DNA of 64,000 nucleotides from the NCBI RefSeq assembly GCF_026616195.1, contig NZ_JANHDH010000001.1, positions 124,001 through 188,000 on the forward strand. Direction: 5' to 3'. Each line of letters starts with the position of its first letter. The first letter of the stretch is position 1. A program made the position numbers and the translations under genes. The stretch comes from Haloarchaeobius amylolyticus. Lineage in GTDB: Archaea; Halobacteriota; Halobacteria; Halobacteriales; Natrialbaceae. The notes under the pieces are model-generated. The model made no database searches. It was not told the origin of the DNA and saw only the letters and a list, made by a program, of their open reading frames with translations. Of the stretch, positions 38,208-58,185 are shown piece after piece.

Positions 38208-39128
38208 ATGCGCGCCCTCCCCGCCATCACGCTCGTTCTCGCACTCGTCCTCGCCGGTTGTGGCAGCCTTGGCCCCGTCACGGAGACCCGCCAGCCGTTC
38301 TCCGTCGAGCAGACAACACAACCGACCGAAGTGGACGACGGTACGACGAACCACGGCCCGCAGTTCGCCATCGACCCGGCGGACGACGAGGTACGGGGCG
38401 TGCGGGCCATGCTCGGTGCGCACCGGAAGACCCTGGTCGACACGAGCTACCGTGTCGGCTACGCGTACCGGGCGACGAGCGAGAACGGCACCGTCCTCTT
38501 GGCCCGGACGATCCGCGGGGCCTACGCCGAGAACCGGTCGCACTACCTCGTCCACCGGAGCGAGAACGGGGCGGCCCTGCCGGAGTCGGGCGAGTGGGAC
38601 GTCTTCGCGGACGGGGACAGGGCGTTCGTGCGTCGGACCACCGAGAACGGGACCTCGGTCTCGGTTCCCGGGCTCGACACCACGGGCGAACCGCGCCGTC
38701 CGACCGACCTCGGGGTCTTCCGTGGCCGAGGCGCGGTCTCGGGCGACCTGTTCCAGGCCTTCGCGGGGATGAACGTGACCAGCGTCACCGAACTCGACCG
38801 GGAACCGGCCGGCGTCGAGGGGCCGCTCTACCGGGTCGAGTCCACCACGGTCGGGGACCCACAGCTCCTCTCGGACGGGGCGAACGCGACGGCGAGGAAC
38901 GCGAGTTTCGAGGCGCTCGTGACGGCGCAGGGCTTCGTCGTCGAGTACCGGTTGACCTTCGAGATGCGGAGGGCCGACGGGATGTGGATCACGGTCGAAC
39001 GACGGCTGGTCTACCGGGACGTCGGGGATGCCATCGTCCCGCGGCCCGAGTGGGTGGACGAGTACACTGCCGGCACCAACTCGACCACGAACGCCCCCGG
39101 CAGCACAACCTTGATGCGCGGACCCTGA
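38208..39128 (+). CDS. Lipoprotein paralogue 1 of 3
   Basis: 306 residues. A lipobox signal (LVLALVLAGCGSLG, Cys18) predicts export and lipid anchoring. The mature protein begins with a variable Thr/Glu-rich spacer, then repeated patterns common to all three copies: a Tyr-rich strand (SYRVGYAYRAT), RTTENGTSVSVP, PTDLGVFRGRG and a closing RRLVYRDVG. These resemble the LolA-like beta sheet seen in other archaeal lipoproteins, but I cannot prove it. Neighbours are the near-copies 2 and 3, indicating tandem duplication. Function unknown. Confidence 0.7.
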   Translation: MRALPAITLVLALVLAGCGSLGPVTETRQPFSVEQTTQPTEVDDGTTNHGPQFAIDPADDEVRGVRAMLGAHRKTLVDTSYRVGYAYRATSENGTVLLARTIRGAYAENRSHYLVHRSENGAALPESGEWDVFADGDRAFVRRTTENGTSVSVPGLDTTGEPRRPTDLGVFRGRGAVSGDLFQAFAGMNVTSVTELDREPAGVEGPLYRVESTTVGDPQLLSDGANATARNASFEALVTAQGFVVEYRLTFEMRRADGMWITVERRLVYRDVGDAIVPRPEWVDEYTAGTNSTTNAPGSTTLMRGP

Positions 39129-39140
39129 CAACTTCGAGCG

Positions 39141-40049
39141 ATGCGCGCCCGCCACGTCCTCGTCCTCGCAATCGCCCTCGTCCTCGCCGGCTGTGGCAGC
39201 CTTGGTCCCGTCACGGAGACCCGTGAACCGTTCGCCGTCGACGGGACGGACCGCCCGACAGTCACCGACGGACCGACCACCACGCGGCCCCCGCAGTTCG
39301 ACCCCGACCCGACCGAGAACGACCTCGGCGACGTCCGTGACATGCTCTCCGCGCAGGGGCGAGTCCTCCAGAACACGAGCTACCGGGCCGACTACCTGGT
39401 GAGGGCCACACACGAGAACGGGACGGTCCTCCTCTATCGTCACGTGGACGGGGCGTACGCGGCGAACGATTCGCGGTACCTCGTCGCCGCCGAAACGTCG
39501 GGCACGACGGTCCCTCGCCGGACCGACTTCGTCCTCTTCGGCGACGGCACCCGGGCGTTCGTCCGCCAGACGACAGAGAACGGCACCTCGGTCAGCGTGC
39601 CGCGACAGGCAGACGGCGGCGACCCGATTCCCCCGACCGACCTGGGTGTCTTCCGGGGACGTGATGCGATGTCCAGTTTCCTCTACCAGGGCTTCGCCGG
39701 GATGAACGTGACCAGCGTCACCGAACTCGACCGCGTCCCGCCCGGGCTCGACGAGCCACTCTACCGGGTCCAGTCCGGGAGCGTCGAGAGCCCGCAACTC
39801 CTCGCCCAGGGCCCGAACGGGACCGTCGAGAACGCGAGCTTCGAGGCTATCGTGGACCACCGTGGGTTCGTCTACGAGTACCGCCTCACGTTCGAGACCG
39901 AGACGGACGCGGGCGACCCGGTCCGCATCGAGCGCCGACTGGTCTACCGGGACCTCGGGAACACGACGGTCCCGCGTCCAGACTGGGTCGAGGACTACGA
40001 GGCCGAGAACGGGACGACGACCACGGCCAGGGTACTCGCCCAGGCCTGA
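39141..40049 (+). CDS. Lipoprotein paralogue 2 of 3
   Basis: 302 residues, closest to copy 1: the signal and lipobox (IALVLAGCGSLGPVTETRE, Cys18) and the blocks MNVTSVTELDR and RRLVYRDLG are almost identical, also at DNA level around the lipobox. It differs in the middle loops. The gene starts twelve bases after copy 1 ends, so they form one transcription unit. Several NxT/NxS sites suggest surface glycosylation. Function unknown. Confidence 0.7.
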   Translation: MRARHVLVLAIALVLAGCGSLGPVTETREPFAVDGTDRPTVTDGPTTTRPPQFDPDPTENDLGDVRDMLSAQGRVLQNTSYRADYLVRATHENGTVLLYRHVDGAYAANDSRYLVAAETSGTTVPRRTDFVLFGDGTRAFVRQTTENGTSVSVPRQADGGDPIPPTDLGVFRGRDAMSSFLYQGFAGMNVTSVTELDRVPPGLDEPLYRVQSGSVESPQLLAQGPNGTVENASFEAIVDHRGFVYEYRLTFETETDAGDPVRIERRLVYRDLGNTTVPRPDWVEDYEAENGTTTTARVLAQA

Positions 40050-40122
40050 CACGACCGTCGGTCTGGTGGCCTTCGCACCCGCTGGGCCAACGTTCATTGC
40101 CCGGTAGTGGGTAGAGGTGACA

Positions 40123-40974
40123 ATGCGCGTGGGACGGGTGTTCGCTCTCGCCCTGCTGGTCGGCCTGGCCGGGTGCGGCGGCCTCGCCGATACCGGCACG
40201 ACGCGCGACCCGTTCTCCGTCGAGCAGCCGACGACCGGTTCCACCGATGCGACAGGGCCCGGGACCCACGCCGTCTTCGACCCCGACCCCGCCCGCGACC
40301 GCGTCCAGAACCTCGACGCCCTGCTGGACTCACACGAGCGCGTGCTCGACGGGACGGGCTACCGGGTCACCGCGGTCTACCGGGAGACCACGGCGAACGG
40401 AACACTGCTCCGAGAACTGATCCGCGAAGGGGCCTACCCGCCGAACCGTTCGCGCTACCTGTACCACGAGCGGGCTGCAGGTACCCGGGTCGGCCCGACG
40501 CAGGAGACCCAGCTGTTCGCCGACGGGCACACCGTCTACAGCCGCCGGTCTATCGGCGACCGGACCGAGGTGACGGTACTGCGGGACTCTGACGGCACGC
40601 CCTTCTCCCCGACCGACCTCGGCATCTTCCGCGGGCAACAGACCGACCTGCTCGCGATGGCCTTCGAATCGGTCGCCATCGACGAGGTCGAGCGCCTCGG
40701 GCATTCGCCACGACAGGTCGAGGACCCGCTCTACCGCCTCCGCGGGGATTCGGTCCGGGACCGGTCGCAGCTCAGCATCGACGCCGACGCGTCGGTCCGG
40801 AACGCGAGCCTTGAGGTCATCGTCGACAGCGACGGGCTGGTCCGGGAGTTCCGGTTCAGCTACGTCACATCGCGTGACGGCCGGCCGGTCAGGGTGACGA
40901 GACGACTGGTCTACCGCGACGTCGGACAGACGTCCATCGAGCGACCGGGGTGGGCTGCCAACGTGACCCTGTAG
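40123..40974 (+). CDS. Lipoprotein paralogue 3 of 3
   Basis: 283 residues, the most divergent copy. Lipobox VGLAGCGGL (Cys18), then the same block order with FSPTDLGIFRGQQ and RRLVYRDVGQTS. ATG 40123 follows a Shine-Dalgarno-like GAGGTGA by two bases. It lies 73 bases after copy 2 and could be made from the same mRNA or separately. The graded divergence (1-2 near, 3 far) dates it as the older duplicate. Function unknown. Confidence 0.7.
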   Translation: MRVGRVFALALLVGLAGCGGLADTGTTRDPFSVEQPTTGSTDATGPGTHAVFDPDPARDRVQNLDALLDSHERVLDGTGYRVTAVYRETTANGTLLRELIREGAYPPNRSRYLYHERAAGTRVGPTQETQLFADGHTVYSRRSIGDRTEVTVLRDSDGTPFSPTDLGIFRGQQTDLLAMAFESVAIDEVERLGHSPRQVEDPLYRLRGDSVRDRSQLSIDADASVRNASLEVIVDSDGLVREFRFSYVTSRDGRPVRVTRRLVYRDVGQTSIERPGWAANVTL

Positions 40975-41075
40975 AATCTCCCGTCCCTGTCGGAACCCAT
41001 AGAACCGGTCGTCGCACGAGCTGACGGTTCTCCGTCCGAAATTCGACAGTGTCCGCTCCCGACCGAACCACGCGT

Positions 41076-41104
41076 ATTCTGTATAGCGATATTTGATTTA
41101 TGGG
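41076..41104 (+). repeat. Left 29-bp inverted repeat (IR-L) of the recombinase region
   Basis: Reads ATTCTGTATAGCGA then TATTTGATTTATGGG on the plus strand. It matches the reverse complement of 43571-43599 at 27 of 29 positions. It lies in the upstream region past the recombinase gene's 3' end. Confidence 0.6.
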
Positions 41105-41172
41105 TTCGGTATCCACCACCGTCTCACCGCGAGAATCCGTATCGCAGAATCGGGTGAATCCCAGACCCGGTC

Positions 41173-42201
41173 TCAGAGCAGGGAGTAGACGTTCGCCTCG
41201 TACACCTCGCGGACGCGGTCGCCCCAGTTGTGGGTGTAGGTGTCGATGATGTCGCTCGCCACGTCCCCGCGGAGGTACTTCACGATGCCACGGTCCCCGG
41301 TGCGGTCCCGGAGATGGGTCGTGAAGAAGTGCCGGAAGTAGTGCGGGGTGACGTTCTCGGCGGCCCCACCACCGGTCCGGTACCAGCCGTGGTCTCTGGC
41401 GTGGGTCTCCACGATGTGGCGGACGCCCTGTGGGGTGACTCGTTCGCCCCAGTCACCCGACGTCGAGACGAACAGCGGCTCTGCGGGCGAGACGGCGTCG
41501 GGGCGGATCGCGAGCCAGCCCACGAGCACCCGTTTCAGCTCCTCGTCGACGGGCACCACGGTCGAGCGCTTGCGCTTGTTCGCCGCGGTGCGTTCCTCCC
41601 CGTGGTACTCGACGCCGTGGGCCGGTTCTGCGGGCACGAATATCGAATCGGGCCGGCCGTCGAGCTGGACGCGACCGCCGAGGTCGTACTCGTCCTCGAG
41701 CGCCGGAACCGACAGCGAGATGTCCCGCAGGTCCAGGTTACAGAGTTCGCCGACACGCATCCCCGTCTTGAGCAGGGCCACGACCAGCGCTCGCTCCAGT
41801 GGATGCCCGATGTCGGCGACGAACTCGCGCATCTGGTCGACCGTGAGCTCCCGTCTCGTCGGGTCCTTGTCGATGGATTCGTTCATCTCCTCGACGACCA
41901 GCGCCATCGGGTTGGCGTCGAACTCGCCGACCTGGGTCATGTAGGCGTAGAACCGGTGGACGTATGAGGCGTAGGAGGCCACCGTGCTGGGGGCGTGCTC
42001 CCCCCGGAGCGAGTGCACCCACGCCATGCACTGCCGGCGGTCGGCCTCCGCCGGGGTGACGGAGCCGCCGCCCGGGCCGGCGTCCGGGTCCGCGAGGAAC
42101 GCCTCGAACCGCCGCAGGACGCGCTCGTAGGCCTCCTGCGTCCGTTTCGCCTTCCCGTGGTAGGTCTGGTCCTCGAGGAAGTACGCGACCGAATCGGACA
42201 T
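41173..42201 (-). CDS. XerC/D-like tyrosine recombinase/integrase
   Basis: 342 residues. An N-terminal core-binding (SAM-like) domain (about 1-105) is followed by the catalytic domain with Arg149 (TGMRVGELCNL), a lysine in KRKRSTVV (209-212), HYFRH (His287, Arg290), His324 (TYTHNW) and the nucleophile, most likely Tyr334 (REVYEANVY). All active-site residues are there, so the enzyme should be functional. The regulator gene ends two bases upstream, making a two-gene operon. The pair sits inside 29-bp inverted repeats. It could be a resident Xer-type enzyme or belong to an integrated element. Confidence 0.88.
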   Translation of the reverse strand: MSDSVAYFLEDQTYHGKAKRTQEAYERVLRRFEAFLADPDAGPGGGSVTPAEADRRQCMAWVHSLRGEHAPSTVASYASYVHRFYAYMTQVGEFDANPMALVVEEMNESIDKDPTRRELTVDQMREFVADIGHPLERALVVALLKTGMRVGELCNLDLRDISLSVPALEDEYDLGGRVQLDGRPDSIFVPAEPAHGVEYHGEERTAANKRKRSTVVPVDEELKRVLVGWLAIRPDAVSPAEPLFVSTSGDWGERVTPQGVRHIVETHARDHGWYRTGGGAAENVTPHYFRHFFTTHLRDRTGDRGIVKYLRGDVASDIIDTYTHNWGDRVREVYEANVYSLL

Positions 42202-42202
42202 C

Positions 42203-42613
42203 TCAGGTGCCCTCTGCGGTGACGTAGCCGCTCTCGCGACCGCTGTACCGGACGCGTCCGTCGGCCTGGAGGTCCTGCAGGGCGCTGTCGAGGCGGTCCT
42301 CGATGTCGTCGCTCACCGCGGCCAGCAGGTCGTCCCAGGTACACGGTCCGTCCTCGCGCTCGAGGATGTCGACGACCCGCGCCGTGAGGTCGCCGGAGTC
42401 CGAGTCACCCGATACGGTCTCCTGGTCGCCCCGGTTCGCCCTGCTATCGGGTGAGTCAGGCAGGTCGAACTTCCGGCGGCCGGCCTGGACCATCGTCCGG
42501 ACGAACTCGCTCTGGCTCATGTCGAGTTCGTCCGCGTGGTCGGCCCACTCGTCTTTCTGGTACTCGGGGACGTAGGTCTTGACCACCGACCGGCTGGTGT
42601 CCTGTTGGCTCAC
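42203..42613 (-). CDS. Ribbon-helix-helix-like regulator with winged-helix tail (DUF5805-like)
   Basis: 136 residues from GTG 42613. The N-terminus (VVKTYVPEYQKDEWADHADELDMSQSEFVRTMVQAG split: strand YVPEYQ, helix, then MSQSEFVRTMVQAG) resembles a CopG-type ribbon-helix-helix. After a polar linker, EREDGPCTWDDLLAAVSD and DRLDSALQDLQADGRVRYSG look like a small winged helix. GTG is preferred to ATG 42634 because a TATA box is centred about 26 bases before the GTG and overlaps that ATG. Proteins of this sort often precede haloarchaeal integrases. It probably represses its own promoter. Confidence 0.65.
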   Translation of the reverse strand: MSQQDTSRSVVKTYVPEYQKDEWADHADELDMSQSEFVRTMVQAGRRKFDLPDSPDSRANRGDQETVSGDSDSGDLTARVVDILEREDGPCTWDDLLAAVSDDIEDRLDSALQDLQADGRVRYSGRESGYVTAEGT

Positions 42614-42630
42614 AGACACCACCCCGGAAA

Positions 42631-42646
42631 GCATGATATATCATGC
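42631..42646 (-). promoter_or_regulatory. Perfect 16-bp palindrome covering the TATA box
   Basis: GCATGATATATCATGC reads the same on both strands. Its core GATATATC is the likely TATA box for the regulator-recombinase operon (start at 42613, 26 bases away). A dimer of a ribbon-helix-helix protein would fit, giving autoregulation. Confidence 0.55.
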
Positions 42647-43570
42647 CTGCGCCCGGGCGTCTGGAAGGGCGTTCTGGTGGGTCGAACCCCAGGGGTCGCG
42701 TGCTCAGGACGGGGTCGTAGACACACCCAATCACCCAGCAATTCTTGCCGGTTGCGCTCTCGGTGGCGTTCCGTCGACCCGCGACTCCAGCGACCCTGGT
42801 GAGTGGCCGTGGCCCAGTCACAGGTAGTATATAGATTCTGGTAGCTTCTCGGCATGTCGCTCTGTCCGCAGCGACTCGTCCCCGATACTTCAATCTGTCC
42901 CACAGTTCGGGATAAGAGTCCTTATCTTCCTCTGAAGGCCCGCTTTACCACCGCCAGATTCATCTTATACGTTATTTCGGGACTGTAAATCACGTGTTGC
43001 AGTACTAGTGACCGAGATACAAATCTCAGGCTCTGTCGCTCCGATAAGGACAGGTTTCGACAGCAGGTCGGGAACAGGTCCGTCACGAGAAGAGTTAGCG
43101 ACCAGAGAAGACATATAGATTCTGCCAATTCTGCATCTCGCCCTGCCCGGCGTGGCGCTCGAGTGTGGGCACTCTCGGTAGGAAACCTGCGCAGATCCAG
43201 TTGGGGGTCGGGGCGATTCGAGCACAGTCCAAGCCCAGCTCGGTCGACGGTGACCTGGGGCAGGTCTGATCGTCGACCGGACTCGATGGGCTCCTGGAAA
43301 GTCAGACAGAACGACTCCTCCTTCGAGAGTCCACAGCGACTGGGAGTGGGCTGGATTTCTCCGGTGAGGGAACCACGAAAGAGGCCGGGAGACGGGGTCG
43401 GCACACCGAGCGAGAAAGCTCTTCGCCGAACCGAGAGCCCCGAGAGCACGGTGAATCCGCATCTCTGACCCATCCACTGCCCAGAGAGGCAAACCCGACA
43501 GCGCCCGTCTCAGCGGTTCTGAGTGAAACACATGGGTTTCGCAGTGCTCTCGACCCTGATGGAGACACAT
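42647..43570. other. About 0.9 kb apparently non-coding region inside the inverted repeats
   Basis: No frame shows halophile codon use or a credible protein. The composition is lower in GC than its surroundings. It contains a T-arm-like sequence (minus-strand 42675-42691), a 12-bp direct repeat ATATAGATTCTG (42829-42840 and 43113-43124), and AT-rich patches near 42900-43010. It may be decayed DNA, an RNA gene or recombination substrate. Confidence 0.45.
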
Positions 43571-43599
43571 CCCATAAATCACATGTCGCTATACAGAAT
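43571..43599 (-). repeat. Right 29-bp inverted repeat (IR-R) of the recombinase region
   Basis: Plus strand begins CCCATAAATCACATG and ends TCGCTATACAGAAT. It is inverted relative to 41076-41104 with only two mismatches. Confidence 0.6.
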
Positions 43600-43636
43600 G
43601 GCGGCCCCGAAGCACGAGGACCCGGGCGCCCGGCGG

Positions 43637-57592: not shown

Positions 57593-58185
57593 CGTGTATC
57601 GGTCAGTGTCGTGGTCTGCGGACGATTCGGGGGACGCGAGGGTGAGCTAGCAGCTCGTCGACTGGTATCGAGAGCCGGGGCTCGACGCGTCGGGTTCTAT
57701 CCCAGCGACGCGGTCGCAGCGTCGCTCCGGGAGTTCGAGAGGGTGAGGAGACGCGCGGTCGACGCTAGCCGTGTCGGCTGTGAACGTCGGTGACGCGGGC
57801 GACCCCTCGTCAGAAAGTGGATAGGGTTTCCATGGACGACCTAGCAGCAAGATCGAGTCATTCCCGGATAAGCGTACCCCGCCAATGCGACTTTTTGTCA
57901 TACTCGGTCCGAGCGACAGCTGCCGGTCCCGGTTTCGCGAGAGAACGTGTCTGTGAACCGACCGCATTCGCGGGCCGACCGCGCCCGAGAGGCGACTCAT
58001 ACACTATATTTCGCTATATCAAATCGGTGGTTCTGGGGGAACCACTGTTCCGGAGAACAGGACCGTGTTGTCCCTGTCCGAAGCAGTCAGAACGCTTTGA
58101 ACCTGCTAGCGAACGGATGGGCTGGTTCGTTTTGGCGCGCCTAAAATCCAGAACGCTTTTCAATAATTAGGCAAGCCTAAATCCT
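57593..58185. other. Long control region between hflX and the iron-binding lipoprotein gene
   Basis: About 590 bases without a credible gene. Near 58001-58020 is an AT-rich ATATTTCGCTATATC resembling part of the 29-bp repeats. 58130-58146 and 58167-58180 are palindromic boxes of the DtxR sort, placed around the start of the downstream gene. The remainder is ordinary GC-rich sequence. Confidence 0.4.
58130..58180 (+). promoter_or_regulatory. Iron-type operator and promoter
   Basis: TTAGGCAAGCCTAA (58167-58180) has perfect arms TTAGGC/GCCTAA about a 2-bp centre, like half of the DtxR/IdeR/SirR box (TTAGG..CCTAA). An imperfect dyad TTTTGGCGCGCCTAAAA (58130-58146) lies upstream. The TATA-like CTTTTCAATA (58155-58164) sits between them, 26 bases before ATG 58186. 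Bound repressor would block the promoter in iron-replete cells. Confidence 0.55.

Follow-up and report, generated by a model that had tools for sequence, protein, structure and literature searches.

Several described systems of tyrosine recombinases and their sites bear on the locus analyzed here. Inversion of DNA by a tyrosine recombinase underlies the fimS switch, which is driven by FimB, and a tyrosine recombinase also runs inversion in the haloarchaeal virus phiCh1. Tyrosine recombinases usually originate from viruses and plasmids, the attachment sites of integrated elements are direct repeats, and two symmetric arms around a 7-bp spacer are the look of a tyrosine-recombinase core site. 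Haloferax volcanii is a genetically tractable and polyploid haloarchaeon whose many chromosome copies must stay unlinked. Among Xer systems, xerS is encoded immediately beside its own resolution site, and the archaeal dif site is not always located in the replication terminus region (PMC5357621). H. volcanii encodes 12 XerC/D-like genes, the role of which in replication termination was left as a question by a review (PMC7776575). A literature text search found no description of a haloarchaeal dif site.

The locus lies in the window, which is the whole 64,000-nucleotide stretch of Haloarchaeobius amylolyticus DNA that was analyzed. The sequence-only reading had proposed that 29-bp inverted repeats enclose a tyrosine recombinase, and these repeats were borne out: IR-L (ATTCTGTATAGCGATATTTGATTTATGGG; 41076-41104) and IR-R when reversed (ATTCTGTATAGCGACATGTGATTTATGGG; 43571-43599) match in inverted orientation at 27 of 29 positions, and the composition-based expectation for such a repeat pair in a 5-kb region was 2.2e-6. 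The unit between the repeats contains only a complete tyrosine recombinase gene, here called INT, a gene for a DNA-binding partner (a DUF5805 protein), and a non-coding portion of about 0.93 kb. The genes on either side are both directed toward the unit. The observation that no clear target duplication accompanies the repeats also held, as there was no obvious duplication in the bases outside them (...CCACGCGT / GGCGGCCC...). The features are as follows.

41075..41107, + strand: left site (IR-L), with a 13-bp arm, a 7-bp center, and a 13-bp arm; motif score 39 bits
41173..42201, - strand: INT, a XerA-like tyrosine recombinase of 342 aa; Pfam PF00589, E 5.6e-15
42203..42634, - strand: DUF5805 protein of 143 aa; Pfam PF19121, E 3.9e-22
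42635..43567, about 0.93 kb: non-coding, AT-richer stretch from the DUF5805 gene to the right site, with no convincing gene
43568..43600, - strand: right site (IR-R), with arms as in the left site and the center GACATGT; motif score 38 bits
43637..44542, - strand: weakly HisG-like 301-aa gene outside the unit, a conserved neighbor used as the orientation reference
57997..58026, - strand: additional (third) site-motif copy without a partner in the window; motif scan, 36.5 bits

The left-site center, GATATTT, occupies positions 41088-41094. The arms of the two window sites are identical to each other, and both of the two mismatches fall inside the 7-bp center. The 2.7-kb segment is present as one copy in its own genome. 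The third site copy lies upstream of an HflX-like gene, and other species of the genus have sites at a similar distance from INT. Directly to the left of the unit, at 38208-40974 on the + strand, are three tandem related lipoprotein genes, the third of which matches DUF7537.

Between the DUF5805 gene and IR-R (42635-43570), the GC content is 0.589, versus 0.680 for the window, and the homologous stretches of 100 loci have 0.55 versus 0.62. Coding content was rejected, as an open reading frame with haloarchaeal coding bias was absent in nearly all of the 100 homologous loci. Known RNAs were rejected as well, as an Rfam search of 12 loci returned only two tRNAs, both of which were outside the units. 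A tRNA attachment site was rejected because the window contains no tRNA.

Alignment of 104 INTs indicated that R149, K209, H287, R290, and Y322 are near-invariant. D313 occupies the position of the second His of Xer (the [H/W] of R-K-H-R-[H/W]-Y), and the other signature residues are present. The best NCBIfam family for INT was XerA_Arch (NF040815), with a score of 104 bits that falls below the cut-off of 220, and XerA above that cut-off was found in 0 of 39 genomes of the order. The nearest solved relatives of INT by sequence were mostly Xer recombinases (PDB XerD/XerA), and the best fold match of a moderately confident structure model (mean pLDDT, 71) was an archaeal Xer (4a8e; E 6.8e-9). 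For the DUF5805 protein, an alignment of 21 homologues and a structure model pointed to a ribbon-helix-helix-like N terminus and a winged-helix C terminus; the winged helix is present in the model, the N terminus of which was of low confidence, and a fold search with it gave no significant match. We conclude that the DUF5805 protein resembles a DNA-binding protein with ribbon-helix-helix and winged-helix parts and that it is likely an accessory or regulatory DNA-binding protein of INT.

INT relatives were found in 123 of 125 Natrialbaceae genomes and, across the order searched, in 145 of 145 genomes representing 51 of 51 genera. The 301-aa gene adjoins INT at the majority of Natrialbaceae loci, and the same neighborhood is found in Halorubrum and Haloferax. 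We conclude from its presence in all 145 genomes and its synteny with the 301-aa gene that INT, which is single copy in its own genome, is universal, chromosomal, and vertically inherited. In Halorubrum (L298 and L303), an extra site lies upstream of the neighboring block of metallo-hydrolase, coiled-coil, and 301-aa genes and is in direct orientation relative to the unit's own upstream site. A form of the unit with two recombinases was found in several genera. At loci L052 to L057, a pair of divergent INT paralogues occurs with two DUF5805 genes and, in many cases, with part of a third recombinase; the deepest split of the INT tree separates the two INT classes of units of this type.

One reading of the locus is that of a mobile element or cassette, which INT would move and which would be delimited by 29-bp terminal inverted repeats. 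Compact plasmid recombinase genes that are tightly bracketed by sites (L138 and L168) have an IS-like outline consistent with such an element. The INT unit, however, occurs in all genomes searched across the order and is syntenic with the same neighbor, and in its own genome it is single copy with no target duplication seen. Moreover, no viral contig encoded an INT relative, and the only matches in a phage collection were distant bacterial phage integrases of approximately 21 to 25% identity, on the basis of which a viral origin was also rejected. We conclude that the small mobile element suggested by the sequence-only reading is very unlikely and, for this locus, already largely refuted.

A site motif was built from approximately 100 Natrialbaceae loci and had the consensus ATTngRTATAGC-RatATRn-RRTTTAYnaG. 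Strict head-to-head pairs of the motif were present at 100 of the 101 INT loci of the family, and at single-INT loci one site follows the INT 3' end and the other lies approximately 0.6 to 3 kb upstream of DUF5805. When the unchanged family motif was applied to other families (Haloferax, Halorubrum, Halorussus, Haladaptatus, and others), both sites were found at 52 of 62 loci. Of the sites found over all 73 loci that were scanned, 2 had the wrong orientation, and a scan of shuffled loci gave 0 matches. We conclude that the repeats are ancient: as a pair resembling recombinase sites, they flank the same Xer-like recombinase gene in almost all halophilic archaea examined. The sequence-only reading had held that conservation as unrelated promoters in other genomes would speak against it; the repeats are indeed conserved in other genomes, but as paired site-like elements and not as promoters.

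The information content of the motif was mirror-symmetric around a single center (r = 0.69; next best, 0.44), and the site layout consists of 13-bp arms and a 7-bp center (13-7-13). This layout agrees with the Xer/dif pattern, in which a site of about 28 bp has two inverted arms around a 6- to 8-bp center. In the extended motif, position 30 is a conserved G and two-fold symmetry becomes apparent; within the center, the bases A17 and T18 are conserved. The left arms of the left and right sites were more alike within than between family loci (0 of 1,000 permutations), and an independent set from outside the family also had left arms that were more alike within a locus (P 0.035). The centers of the left and right sites, by contrast, were identical in 1 of 100 family loci (0.9 expected) and in 1 of 53 loci outside the family, where mean identity was slightly above that of permuted pairs (P 0.04). 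An RNA-processing stem was rejected, as the left and right sites covary nowhere beyond the left arm.

Another way to account for the unit is as the relic of an ancient integrated element, the recombinase of which was domesticated for a chromosomal task and the attachment sites of which persist as fossils. The viral and plasmid source of most tyrosine recombinases and the two-recombinase form of the unit in several genera are each consistent with such an origin. Attachment sites, however, are direct and the sites here are inverted, and fossil sites would lose the conservation of sequence and symmetry that is kept order-wide. We consider a fossil element improbable.

Inverted sites around a site-specific recombinase could also indicate a phase switch, as the sequence-only reading had suggested, with INT flipping the 2.5-kb segment and thereby altering its own expression or that of a neighbor. 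The window's two sites differ at just 2 positions, which favors such a switch, as do the flips of the unit relative to its neighbors in deep time. When unit orientation was compared with flanking orthologues, 0 of 269 pairs with an INT identity of at least 80% were inverted and 34 disjoint pairs among close INT relatives were all colinear, whereas a switching population should yield mixed orientations; these data represent one genome per species, such that low-level switching within a population would stay hidden. Whole-unit flips relative to the neighbors were found at deep divergence only, and as few as 2 changes of orientation, on deep branches, were enough to account for the tree of 104 INTs. 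Among the deep pairs scored as "inverted" with both flanks, many come from loci that carry two INT paralogues, and the true count of unit inversions is therefore small and uncertain. Because two divergent INT paralogues are present at some loci, part of the orientation change may be due to paralogue loss rather than inversion. Moreover, the centers of the exchange region differ in the window (GATATTT versus GACATGT) and elsewhere are identical about as often as expected by chance. Neither a switched gene nor a switched promoter was seen; the neighbors are convergent, and the non-coding stretch could yet carry an outward promoter. We conclude that a self-inverting switch is unlikely. What stands of the earlier interpretation is the pair of inverted recombinase-type sites around a complete tyrosine recombinase and its partner, and what lacks support is the switch or mobile element built upon them.

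The reading that we prefer, to which we give a probability of roughly one-half, is that the unit is a haloarchaeal Xer/dif-like module in which two sites with shared arms and different centers each recombine with their own copy on the sister chromosome. In such a module, the INT gene would be enclosed by a pair of inverted dif-like core sites, and INT would recognize the two inverted arms of each site, bind and cut there, and exchange strands at the short central region. Recombination of the left with the right site, and hence inversion, would be disfavored because their centers differ; in left-with-left or right-with-right recombination, either between chromosome copies or within a dimer, the centers would match. 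Like-with-like recombination is thus the putative physiological reaction, in the form of dimer resolution or sister-molecule exchange, and dimer resolution is its probable benefit.

The Xer/dif-like reading is favored by the occurrence of INT in every genome and genus searched when XerA above the cut-off is found in none of the 39 genomes, and by near-invariant catalytic residues together with an archaeal Xer as the best fold match. Likewise in its favor are the head-to-head pairs both within and outside the family, the mirror-symmetric arms, of which the left ones are more alike within a locus when family centers are not, and the central position of both window mismatches. Moreover, sites of the same kind bracket Int-III, a recombinase of plasmids, and modules with the gene beside the site are precedented by XerS/difSL and some XerA/dif systems (PMC5357621). 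As the site pair is near-universal around the same Xer-like gene, the sites are candidates for haloarchaeal chromosome-resolution sites. Against the same reading, INT falls short of the XerA family cut-off, a chromosome normally has one dif and here there are pairs at several loci per genome, and the conserved A17 and T18 are unusual for a free overlap. The slight excess of center identity within loci outside the family also argues against it, as does the retained viability of H. volcanii after deletion of four XerC/D-like genes, among which INT may or may not be included (PMC7776575).

The sites are present not only as two per INT locus but also as further pairs at several loci per genome, and a count over 20 genomes, with INT loci among those counted, gave 34 close pairs, 32 of which were head-to-head. 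Recombinase genes of three kinds, INT and two others, are repeatedly bracketed. Int-III, a divergent tyrosine recombinase of 410 to 470 aa that is common on haloarchaeal megaplasmids and often annotated as a hypothetical protein, has a site approximately 200 bp upstream and often a second at the stop codon (L138, in the own genome at C3:8209-9685; L168; L208 to L235), and it is a candidate plasmid multimer resolvase. In most haloarchaeal families sampled, a site pair brackets rio2 (L178 to L207; in the own genome L161, C2:407469-408548). The core promoter of rio2, a GCTTTTA box approximately 30 bp before the start, falls inside the bracket; thus, the site is not a TATA element, and a promoter role was rejected. 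In the own genome, head-to-head sites also enclose a hemC ... hemD segment (L159, C1:1940438-1943331), a bracket that is also kept in another species of the same genus (L165), and another pair brackets a DsbA-like gene; in a GC-poor relative, a NifU gene is bracketed. At L143, L145, L151, and L174, head-to-head pairs 0.34 to 0.65 kb apart surround mostly non-coding DNA, for which there was no Rfam match.

Brackets that lack a recombinase, such as those of rio2 and hemC-hemD, are unexplained by dimer resolution, and because dimer resolution fails to predict pairs elsewhere, a role in binding alone is kept as a serious rival. The sites, placed head-to-head around transcription units and no longer recombining today, could serve INT, DUF5805, or some other conserved protein as operators, insulators, or loop anchors. 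Such a role would account for the bracketing of complete recombinase-free transcription units with the core promoter inside, as for rio2 order-wide, for the bracketing of hemC-hemD and of non-coding stretches, and for the predominance of the head-to-head arrangement among close pairs, and it agrees with the lack of inversion at rio2 (83 comparable pairs colinear and 0 inverted). However, INT retains its main catalytic residues, three kinds of recombinase gene are repeatedly bracketed, arm symmetry with a 7-bp spacer fits a tyrosine-recombinase core, and whole units have flipped at depth. We regard binding alone as possible though doubtful, and as the main rival to the Xer/dif-like module.

We tentatively suggest that haloarchaea carry genome-wide head-to-head pairs of Xer-type sites that bracket transcription units (rio2, hemC-hemD, the recombinase itself, and plasmid recombinases) and are serviced by conserved XerA-like recombinases, which would make them either a new kind of element that marks chromosome boundaries or, unparalleled in bacteria, a resolution system with multiple sites. 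A universal recombinase with an order-wide, specific site pair would make the question of XerC/D-like termination directly testable in tractable haloarchaea. Moreover, neither the pairing nor the placement of these sites around rio2 and further housekeeping genes would have a precedent in Xer biology.

Comparison with known systems sets the unit apart from each of them. Like the fimS/FimB and phiCh1 inversion systems, the unit has inverted sites around or beside a tyrosine recombinase, but unlike in those systems its centers differ, its orientation is fixed among close relatives, and no switched gene was seen. The dif1 and dif2 sites of Vibrio cholerae (PMC5357621) resemble the unit in that two sites served by the same recombinases differ mainly in the center, but they are on different chromosomes, and the unit's sites are a few kilobases apart around a gene. 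XerS/difSL and XerH/difH (PMC5357621) share with the unit a single recombinase that acts alone but have one site instead of an inverted pair, and the difSL center is 11 bp. Archaeal XerA/dif, as described in Pyrococcus and Thermoplasma (PMC2958812, PMC5357621), also has a XerA-like tyrosine recombinase and a site with two inverted arms and a short center, and in some archaea the gene and site form one module, with no FtsK. It differs from the unit, in which INT scores below the XerA cut-off and has a DUF5805 partner. Moreover, XerA/dif has one site with 11-bp arms and a 6-bp center, whereas the unit has two inverted sites per locus with 13-bp arms and 7-bp centers, and the haloarchaeal genome has further site pairs elsewhere.
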